From positions 1-64,000 of the forward strand of contig JAIQFB010000014.1 in the NCBI GenBank assembly GCA_020073485.1: DNA of 64,000 nucleotides. The letters are read 5' to 3'. This document shows positions 14,850 to 17,358 of the stretch, one piece after another; position 1 is the first letter of the stretch; every line of letters starts with the position of its first letter. The notes beneath the pieces are model-generated. The model was not told the DNA's origin. It made no database searches and saw only the letters and a program-made list of their open reading frames with translations. The position numbers and the translations under genes were made by a program. The DNA comes from Terriglobia bacterium. Its GTDB lineage: Bacteria > Acidobacteriota > Terriglobia > Acidiferrales > UBA7541.

Positions 14850-16376
14850 TTAAACATATTGGTCTGCCTTGGCCGGGGCCGCGCTTGCTTTTCCGATGGA
14901 TACAAACTGATTATCCATCGGCTCGGCGCAGCAATACCAGGGTTCGTCGAGAAATGGCACGGGAGCGGGGTGCGCGGCGGAGTGCCCGGGAATTGGCGGC
15001 GCGGTGATCCCCGCCGCAGCGTGCGCGGCGCGCCAGATGTGGGAGAAAATTTGCGTGCGCGAAAGTTTGAGCGAATCCCCGCGCTGCACCAGATCGGAAA
15101 TTGCCTTGGACAAAGCATCGACGCGCGGATCTTGGTGCTTCCAAGGAAACACCAGCGCGGCGGAATCAAACGGCTCGACCATGCGGCGCACCTCCGGCAA
15201 ATCCAGGAGCCGAGATCCCGCGGGAATCAGCAGGCGAATGGCCAGCTGAATGGGCGCGACGTTTTCGCACAACTCTTCCCGCGCGATCACGTCCAGCAAA
15301 TCGATGTAGCCCTCAAGCGATGTCCATGGCGTGAACGGCACGAACGTGGGCAGCAGCGTCATGCCCAGTTCGCGGAATCTCGCGACCACGGCGAGAAAAT
15401 CGGCGCGCGTGTGCCCCTTATCGAATTGTTCGAGCACGCGGTCATCCACCGATTCCACGGCGCTGATGACGAACAGGCAGCCCGTGTCGCGCAGTGTCGC
15501 GAGAAGAGCGTCGTGCTTGCGCAGGTGCTCAATCTTGATGGTCGCGTCGTAGCTGAGGACCGGGAATTCGCGATGCAGGGCTTGCACGATGGAAAGCGAG
15601 TGCGCCGGGCCGTTGAAAAAATCCGGGTCGCCGAAGGTGATGTGCTGAGCGCCCGCGTCAACCTGCTGGCGGATATCGTCGAGCACGACGTCGCGGTCCA
15701 CCACGCGGAAAGCGCCGTTATAAACCGGCACGATCGGACAATGGCGGCAGAGGTGCTTGCAGCCGCGCGTCGCCTCGGTCGAGCCCGCGATGCGGTGCTC
15801 GCCTCCGGGCATTACCACGCGCGCGTAGTTCGCAAGCTCGGGCATGCCCGCGCGGTCCGGGACAAGAAATTTTTGCCGCGCGAGGGAAATGACGGGTTCT
15901 TGTTGTACAGGGCCGTCATTCCGAGCGGAGCGAGGAATCTCTCCGTCCGACGATCCAAGAGGGATTCCTCGCTCCGCTCGGAATAACAACGATTGGGGTT
16001 GGTCGAGTGTCTCATTCAGGCGGCCCGCAAGATCGACCAGGCCCTGCTCGAATTCCCCGCCGAGAATCGTGGCGACGCCGAGCCCGCGAAGATACTCCTC
16101 ATTCACCGGGGCGTACAGACCATAAAAACAAAGATGCGCACGCGGATTCAGTCCGCGAACGCGATCGACCAGCCCGGCCGCCAGGCGTGTCGCCGTGTGC
16201 ATGGGCACGTAGAATGCGATCAATTCCGAATCGCGCACGGCAGCATCCTGGAAAGCTTCGCGCGTCAGATCGAAACAAGCAACCTCGTGCCCACGTGCGC
16301 GCAGCCATGCCGCAGGCGACGCAAGGCCAAACGGCTGCCTGCCCAGTTCGTACGTGGAGATGAGAACGATGTTCAT
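14850..16376 (-). CDS. CCAEP-tail B12-binding-domain radical SAM protein
   Basis: A 508-aa protein. The N-terminal ~120 residues (VLISTYELGRQPFGLAS..., AFYVPMHTATRLA) resemble the cobalamin-binding fold of B12-dependent radical SAM enzymes but lack an evident DxHxxG cobalt-ligand motif. The 4Fe-4S motif CX3CX2C is C206, C210 and C213 in RGCKHLCRHCPIVP. The C-terminal tail WYCCAEPMDNQ matches the CUAEP/CCAEP-tail radical SAM (seleno)protein family; both codons are TGC here, so this is the cysteine form. The reaction of the family is unknown to me. Residues about 131-153 are encoded by a palindromic repeat (15919-15985) read in frame. The ATP-grasp gene follows 117 bp downstream. Confidence 0.88.
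   Translation of the reverse strand: MNIVLISTYELGRQPFGLASPAAWLRARGHEVACFDLTREAFQDAAVRDSELIAFYVPMHTATRLAAGLVDRVRGLNPRAHLCFYGLYAPVNEEYLRGLGVATILGGEFEQGLVDLAGRLNETLDQPQSLLFRAERGIPLGSSDGEIPRSARNDGPVQQEPVISLARQKFLVPDRAGMPELANYARVVMPGGEHRIAGSTEATRGCKHLCRHCPIVPVYNGAFRVVDRDVVLDDIRQQVDAGAQHITFGDPDFFNGPAHSLSIVQALHREFPVLSYDATIKIEHLRKHDALLATLRDTGCLFVISAVESVDDRVLEQFDKGHTRADFLAVVARFRELGMTLLPTFVPFTPWTSLEGYIDLLDVIAREELCENVAPIQLAIRLLIPAGSRLLDLPEVRRMVEPFDSAALVFPWKHQDPRVDALSKAISDLVQRGDSLKLSRTQIFSHIWRAAHAAAGITAPPIPGHSAAHPAPVPFLDEPWYCCAEPMDNQFVSIGKASAAPAKADQYV
15919..15985. repeat. Palindromic (REP-like) repeat inside the radical SAM gene
   Basis: Two perfect 22-nt arms, 15919-15940 and 15964-15985, are reverse complements separated by 23 nt. 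The arms contain the CGAGCGGAGCGAGGAATC type sequence found scattered in many genomes, and here translate to LFRAERGIPLGSSDGE and EIPRSARND. The reading frame of the radical SAM gene stays open through it. It falls between the B12-binding-like domain and the radical SAM core, so it probably encodes a tolerated linker. Confidence 0.85.
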
Positions 16377-16887: not shown

Positions 16888-17358
16888 TAAAGCCTCCATT
16901 CAGGAAGATCGGCCGGGGCACGAGCACAAGTGCAGCCGAACCGCGTGATCTCTCGCTCCGGTGCCTGGCGCCTGTGAGCGGCATCATACCACGGGATGGC
17001 GGACCGTGGGCGCGGGATCAGGGCTGCATAATATATGAATTAGCAAGTTATTGGTGTGGAGAAATTTTCGGGGGAGACCTACTCCACTGCCGGCACTTTC
17101 GTAATTTGATGAACGGCAAGATTTTGGAGGTCGGGGCTTCAGCCCCGACGTTTAACGTTGTCGGATCGGGGGTTTTGACCCCTGAAGCTTCAGGGGCGAA
17201 AGCCCACGACAAACCAGGCATAAATGTCCGAGCTGAAGCTCGGACCTCCGACTACCCACGGAAAATTGAATTTTAGGACAGTACCCCGCTACCGGGAAGG
17301 CTGCGCGGAACACAGGGATGCGATATGATTATGGTTCTGCATCCAATCAGAAAGGAAC
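16888..17358. other. 471-bp divergent intergenic region with repeat copy 2
   Basis: It separates the minus-strand secreted-protein gene from plus-strand acnA. Apart from the composite repeat at 17126-17250, no gene is supported. It should contain both promoters; TATGAT at 17324-17329 is a possible -10 for acnA but has no matching -35. Confidence 0.5.
17126..17250 (-). repeat. Composite hairpin repeat, copy 2 of 2 (inverted)
   Basis: The reverse complement matches the element at 2851-2976 segment by segment: GTCCGAGCTGAAGCTCGGAC (17226-17245), the identical 18-bp palindrome CCCCTGAAGCTTCAGGGG (17179-17196), and TCGGGGCTTCAGCCCCGA (17131-17148). Compensating changes keep the outer stems paired, which points to selection for hairpin structure. 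It lies upstream of acnA. Confidence 0.8.

Follow-up and report, generated by a model that had tools for sequence, protein, structure and literature searches.

Why should the gene of a bacterial enzyme carry a palindromic repeat in the middle of its coding sequence? The question arose in a window of 64,000 nucleotides (the whole stretch of DNA that was analysed) from a Terriglobia bacterium, a window with about 85% of its length in long open reading frames (18,038 codons in 39 ORFs, chosen greedily). An earlier note, made from the letters alone, had described two perfect 22-nt arms around a 23-nt loop inside a radical SAM gene, translated in frame without a stop between two domains. All of this is borne out (Table 1), save that the palindrome had been placed at 15919–15985, one base off its exact position. 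The reading frame is open right through the palindrome, the arms encode residues 131–153 of the 508, and the whole element touches codons 130–155. At its low end stands the foot CGTC, and at its high end a changed foot that reads TGTT on the gene strand. At 93% complementarity the arms extend to 29 nt each (15915–15943 and 15959–15987). The gene-strand RNA from 15908 to 15996 folds at −60.1 kcal/mol, against −29.4 (sd 3.3) in 200 shuffles, none of which did as well (z −9.4). The shuffles, together with the dispersed family described below, rule out a chance palindrome.

The host protein scores 623 bits (E 2.5e-187) against the NCBIfam model NF040546 (rSAM_CUAEP), passing its curated cut-off of 500. 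Pfam Radical_SAM covers residues 202–343 (44.9 bits, cut-off 29.5), and a weak B12-binding match, which at 23.1 bits does not reach the Pfam cut-off of 32.1, covers residues 7–116; the palindrome falls between the two. Fold comparison of the predicted protein suggests the radical SAM dehydratase AprD4 and B12/radical SAM enzymes as its best solved relatives. The gene's nearest named relatives, at 73–84% identity, come from metagenome-assembled genomes (MAGs) of Terriglobia, Acidobacteria and Candidatus Acidiferrum, and its remoter ones include other phyla. The C-terminus has the Cys-Cys-Ala-Glu-Pro form. Many homologues from other genera contain one in-frame TGA, and these are presumably the selenocysteine form implied by the family name. 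A literature search on CUAEP found no paper.

Table 1. Features of the radical SAM gene and of the palindromic element within it (window coordinates)
Feature	Position	Strand	Basis
Host gene, 508 aa, B12-binding-like + radical SAM, CCAEP-tail form of the CUAEP/CCAEP family	14850..16376	-	ORF, NF040546, Pfam
Interdomain linker, 117 nt = 42 nt host linker (28 + 14) + 75-nt element	15900..16016	-	six-genome comparison
Palindromic insert of 75 nt, its two 4-nt feet counted	15914..15988	-	occupied/empty comparison in six genomes, letters, dispersed family
Arm 1, 22 nt, perfect; a single CGTC-footed unit with stem ATTCC/GGAAT, two tandem G.A mismatches and the tip GC-GGA-GC	15918..15939	+	sequence letters, family comparison
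Spacer (loop) between units, 23 nt, variable among copies	15940..15962	.	sequence letters
Arm 2, perfect 22 nt, inverted unit	15963..15984	-	sequence letters, family comparison

Paired hairpin units across the genome

The earlier note had proposed counting the arm elsewhere in the genome, and the count reveals a dispersed family. In the window's own genome (5.05 Mb in 46 contigs; we label it G000, other genomes of the genus G001–G005, and fetched loci by L-numbers) there are 144 arms at up to three mismatches, while a control pattern found none. One hundred listed arms of the 144 make up 70 places, which were fetched with their flanks: 54 hold head-out pairs (variant partners counted), 16 hold single arms and none has the opposite order. 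The family reaches across the genus, with 47, 39 and 49 arms at up to two mismatches in G003, G004 and G005, and at least 150 model matches, both strands counted, in G001.

The common arm can be written CGTC-ATTCC-GA-GC-GNA-GC-GA-GGAAT. Among 106 arms the foot is CGTC in 82, TGTC in 16 and something else in 8, and the tail is CCC in 81, CTC in 15 and CCA in one. The stem has seven Watson–Crick pairs and two G.A mismatches, with a loop of 3 nt. Over 240 arms from four genomes the first two pairs are A-T in 231 and T-A in 237, a conservation inflated by the picking of arms for pattern similarity, and the facing G.A and A.G positions keep their letters in 229 and 224. The inner G-C pair has become A-T in 34 of the 240, as against 11 with A.C, 2 with G.T and 4 others. 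Judged from the letters, this replacement is compensatory, with fewer events than the counts, since the arms were chosen by similarity and fall into subfamilies. Longer variant arms retain ATTCC-G(A)...GA-GGAAT around another hairpin (the search pattern that picked them up had this shape), as does one arm in G003, and this suggests that the single unit folds too. Taken alone, one unit has a weak computed DNA fold, −2.7 kcal/mol in the case of the window's arm, which does not surpass that of shuffled sequences; standard parameters may not credit the G.A pairs. DNA mini-hairpins of the GCGNAGC kind are unusually stable. The GGA tip is uncommon in the window's genome, where six of the 100 listed arms have it, both arms of the radical SAM gene included; in G003 it occurs in 8 of 47. 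A literature search found no paper printing the arm sequence for such a repeat.

The radical SAM gene is not the only gene to be entered. In-gene copies are rare all the same, given how much of the window is taken up by long ORFs: two of the 70 places in G000, a lower bound, are supported as such, the other lying in a second protein (L122:434–1819, minus strand), so that the repeat does occur in another coding gene, where the earlier note had suggested counting the arm. The orthologues of this protein in G003 (L258:1774–3138, plus strand) and G002 also hold in-frame copies at the matching position, and G003 has them at one further place; related loci are L318, L315, L324 and L321, and the G000 and G003 copies of the protein both end in DEEILGM. 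This second protein reads the repeat in a different frame from the radical SAM gene. Our test for in-gene copies by codon use is rough. Run on G005 (39 of 39 places), G003 (40 of 45) and G004 (20 of 29), it flagged L258 alone and missed the radical SAM copies of G003 (scores 0.047 and 0.159) and G004 (0.064 and 0.138) at a threshold of 0.08; as it misses true copies, the in-gene counts are lower bounds. At the place of the repeat the G005 protein has a different linker sequence, and in the genome G008 a related-looking stretch, judged by eye, sits elsewhere in the protein. Neither L122 nor L258 has a PHROG match, and ten repeat-bearing ORFs of G000 besides the radical SAM gene (L122 included) have no Pfam match.

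Occupied and empty linkers in one genus

Absence of the segment from relatives, the earlier note had argued, would prove an insertion, and the genus supplies it. The linker holds the element in G000, G003 and G004, where it measures 117, 129 and 126 nt, and lacks it in G005, G001 and G002, where it measures 42 nt each time. With their 4-nt feet the elements are 75, 87 and 84 nt long, each a multiple of three, and without them the host linker comes to exactly 42 nt in every one of the six genomes, split into 28 and 14 in the occupied genes. Since removal with the feet leaves exactly 42 nt, the simplest view is that the feet are the ends of the moving unit, a boundary drawn from these lengths and the symmetry of the family. 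No direct repeat is seen flanking the element; as far as the linker sequences tell, the insertion is clean, with no sign of a duplicated target. The closest relative, G005, is 90% identical to G000 over residues 157–508 of the protein, and identity to G000 is 80% for the occupied G004 protein and 77% for that of G003. G003 has an expanded arm, and a different peptide is read in one of its arms; G004 has a 3-nt insert in the stem.

Nor is landing in frame improbable once a site is tolerant: of 36 dimers measured in the window's own genome, 13 have a length divisible by three, and each of these 13 is open in one or more frames. The linker diverges fast, with 9–31 of its 42 nt identical between species (17 of 42 between the sisters G000 and G005). 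AlphaFold, with an alignment of 64 proteins, gives a mean pLDDT of 89.1 for the whole protein, dropping to 53 for residues 131–140 and 50 for 141–150. On this divergence and this low model confidence, the linker looks like a permissive landing pad. A normally intergenic repeat inserted in a tolerant linker was one of two choices put forward in the earlier note, and it is the one upheld by the empty and occupied sites, the dispersed family, the fast-changing linker and the model.

Passenger, RNA signal or part of the enzyme

Our preferred explanation, to which we give a probability of about 0.85, is that we are looking at a mobile, non-autonomous repeat, in which two CGTC-footed hairpin units are joined head-out as in the CGTC-tagged REP dimers. 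The dimer would have inserted cleanly, within the genus, into a permissive linker, 14 codons long, in the radical SAM gene, probably moving as single-stranded DNA with the help of a transposase (perhaps Y1/HUH). Since its length is divisible by three and the frame in use is open, it would be read as some 25 extra residues in a flexible interdomain loop; the protein would still be made, and the peptide would be a nearly neutral passenger.

Two findings go against this explanation. One is that no transposase is tied to the repeat in the loci read (see below); the other is that the arms are far better conserved than expected of a passive passenger. In the three pairwise comparisons of the radical SAM copies they are identical at 42/42, 41/42 and 21/21 positions, or 104 of 105 ungapped positions (gaps such as the G003 expansion are uncounted, and the third pair was compared over one arm). 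Four-fold sites of the gene differ by 0.44–0.53 among the three occupied genes, and the linker itself has diverged further than that; the four-fold sites in the arms differ at 0 of 9 between G000 and G004 (at the rate seen in the gene, the chance of this is 0.001) and at 0 of 5 in the one comparable G003 arm (chance 0.04–0.06). Eleven other orthologous pairs of copies (L122–L258 excluded) keep 326 of 357 arm positions, against 1719 of 2154 ungapped columns in their 150-nt flanks; 8 of 23 pairs gave unusable alignments and were left out, and L067–L221 was kept with one misaligned arm counted. The arms seem, then, to be maintained, or else homogenised, at the level of DNA or RNA across the family, and because orthologous copies elsewhere are also conserved, arm conservation says little for the peptide.

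How likely is it that the inserted peptide has been domesticated, and is now a functional part of the enzyme held by protein-level selection? Very unlikely indeed, in our view. The frame has stayed open in all three occupied genes, across the protein divergence given above, and the residues FRAERGI and PRSARNDG are identical in G000 and G004. Yet the closest relative does without the element, as do G001 and G002; the arms are just as unchanged at silent sites, and the eleven pairs elsewhere are conserved too, so that this alternative of the earlier note is not supported. The peptide differs in one G003 arm, and the pLDDT of the insert is low. Looking by eye through 89 distinct linkers of homologues, we saw no such segment conserved in other codons, which the earlier note had named as the outcome, in other genera, that would overturn an insertion. 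A role of the RNA is a better candidate, though still an improbable one. The mRNA hairpin, some 29 bp long, might pause ribosomes between the domains, or be cut by RNase III, and so tune expression; the fold is very stable, the arms are kept at silent sites, RNA roles for REPs are proposed in the available text of Di Nocera et al. 2013 (PMC3733652), and RNase III cleavage of NEMIS transcripts is described in excerpts of a review (PMC2229807). Against it, the stem varies among the occupied genes through the G003 expansion and the G004 insert, and most linkers of homologues have no such palindrome, a perfect inverted repeat of at least 12 nt occurring in 4 of the 89.

As to what might move the mobile repeat, all 11 genomes searched have Y1_Tnp matches, which number 39 altogether and 3 in G000. 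We read 12 of the 39 loci and found an arm within 1.5 kb in one (L053, in G005). With about 39 places in 5.3 Mb, chance gives 2–3% per 3.3-kb stretch and about 0.3 in 12 loci, which makes the single case weak evidence; a dedicated Y1 transposase, tried as a candidate, is unsupported by 1 of 12. In that locus one repeat unit (L053:1086–1106, G005:C60) lies about 0.4 kb upstream of the Y1_Tnp match. CGTC repeats are described without a dedicated transposase in the sections available of PMC3733652.

Relatives of the element, and the same linker elsewhere

Compared by description rather than by consensus sequence, the window's family shares much with the CGTC-tagged REP dimers in the portions available of PMC3733652: an unpaired CGTC or TGTC foot (theirs may also be CCTC), a stem opening with A-T and then T-A, a majority of head-to-head dimers (which we read as head-out) with variable spacers, and some copies inside genes, where they add 20–30 residues. 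It differs in its stem of seven pairs with tandem G.A and a 3-nt loop, where theirs has 8–9 bp and a loop of 4–5 nt, and in its tail, mostly CCC where theirs is mostly CCA (1 of 106 here). The same portions list CGTC repeats in Proteobacteria, Chlorobi, Bacteroidetes, Spirochaetes and Thermotogae, not Acidobacteria, and report intragenic CGTC and GTAG REPs as already known in several phyla. The other likeness is to RPE-4, -6 and -7 of Rickettsia and WPE of Wolbachia (excerpts of PMC3767692 and PMC2229807), palindromes lying in frame in pre-existing genes, where orthologues share the site of the insert; ATGAC, a motif frequent in them, also stands at one end of the window's element (GGAATGAC). 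Our element likewise sits in frame in a pre-existing gene and is absent from homologues. Those repeats belong to another phylum; here the length of the moving unit can be read from empty sites inside a genus. REP/REPIN sequences with their TnpA-REP (RAYT), in the available text of PMC6006769, are also short imperfect hairpins, often in inverted pairs and dispersed, but the window's family has no GTAG-type foot and no adjacent transposase has been established for it. The family thus appears to fit a known kind (RPE; intragenic CGTC REPs), differing in tail and stem. It adds to the protein-coding palindromes a case from relatives of Acidobacteriota, and by fixing the length of the moving unit for CGTC-like repeats, through empty and occupied sites in one genus, it makes the question of the mover more testable.

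The history of the site is more intricate. In a gene tree of 13 rows built without the linker (G002, whose copy is cut by N, was left out), G000 groups with the empty G005 (100/99) and G003 with G004 (94/96), with G001 unresolved beside them. A single clade of occupied rows is rejected (p-AU 6e-5), and the site must therefore have changed at least twice, either by one gain and a loss in G005 that brought back exactly 42 nt, or by a gain on two occasions at one position. The second course, with independent insertions in the line of G000 and in that of G003 and G004 in place of an old insertion lost from G005, is a possibility we hold tentatively, at rather less than even odds. The tree speaks for it, and so do the spacers in part: that of G000 has its best match in another G000 copy, its six best include neither G003 nor G004, and it is itself outside the six best of the G004 spacer. 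On the other side, the linker position is identical in all three occupied genes; the G003 and G004 spacers are mutual best matches of 60, with the G000 spacer third for G003; the last 14 linker nucleotides of G000 match G003 at 11 of 14, but its sister G005, and G004, at only 6 each; and a GGA tip, rare in G000 and less so in G003, occurs in at least one arm of all three elements. Common descent of all three elements was also sought in the spacers, and the comparison gave no proof of it. Recombination swapping an occupied for an empty allele, or the reverse, is a third way. Two insertions would be compatible with the mobile-repeat explanation, for they concern history only.

That the linker is a true exchange site, which elements enter and then leave precisely (down to the exact 42 nt of G005), seems doubtful to us. 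If it were so, the host protein would gain and lose tags of 25–29 residues reversibly, and unrelated repeat families would use the same linker in other species.

The linkers of other species also speak for the preferred explanation, with its permissive site. The 110 homologous loci (3 without a linker by the pattern used, 18 fetched twice) gave the 89 distinct linkers, with a median of 36 aa in the counting frame used and 21 of at least 46 aa. Three of these 21 are the occupied ones of the genus, and 11 of the other 18 were compared with their own genomes. Six of the 11 (L146, L162, L175, L179, L192 and L204) have further copies elsewhere in the genome, which means that the same linker took up unrelated repeats in different species; the remaining five (L034, L037, L043, L165 and L189) found only themselves among the matches listed. 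Interdomain linkers, it follows, can collect unrelated mobile repeats with the reading frame staying open. The L037 linker contains a unit resembling a single variant of the window's own family. That of L189 (79 aa, from another acidobacterial MAG) has a perfect 18-nt inverted repeat of different sequence. Within the window itself, other small palindromes, GTCGGGGCTTCAGCCCCGAC and CCGAGCTGAAGCTCGG among them, are clustered between genes at 17128–17270 and look similar to the repeats in the L146 and L162 linkers.
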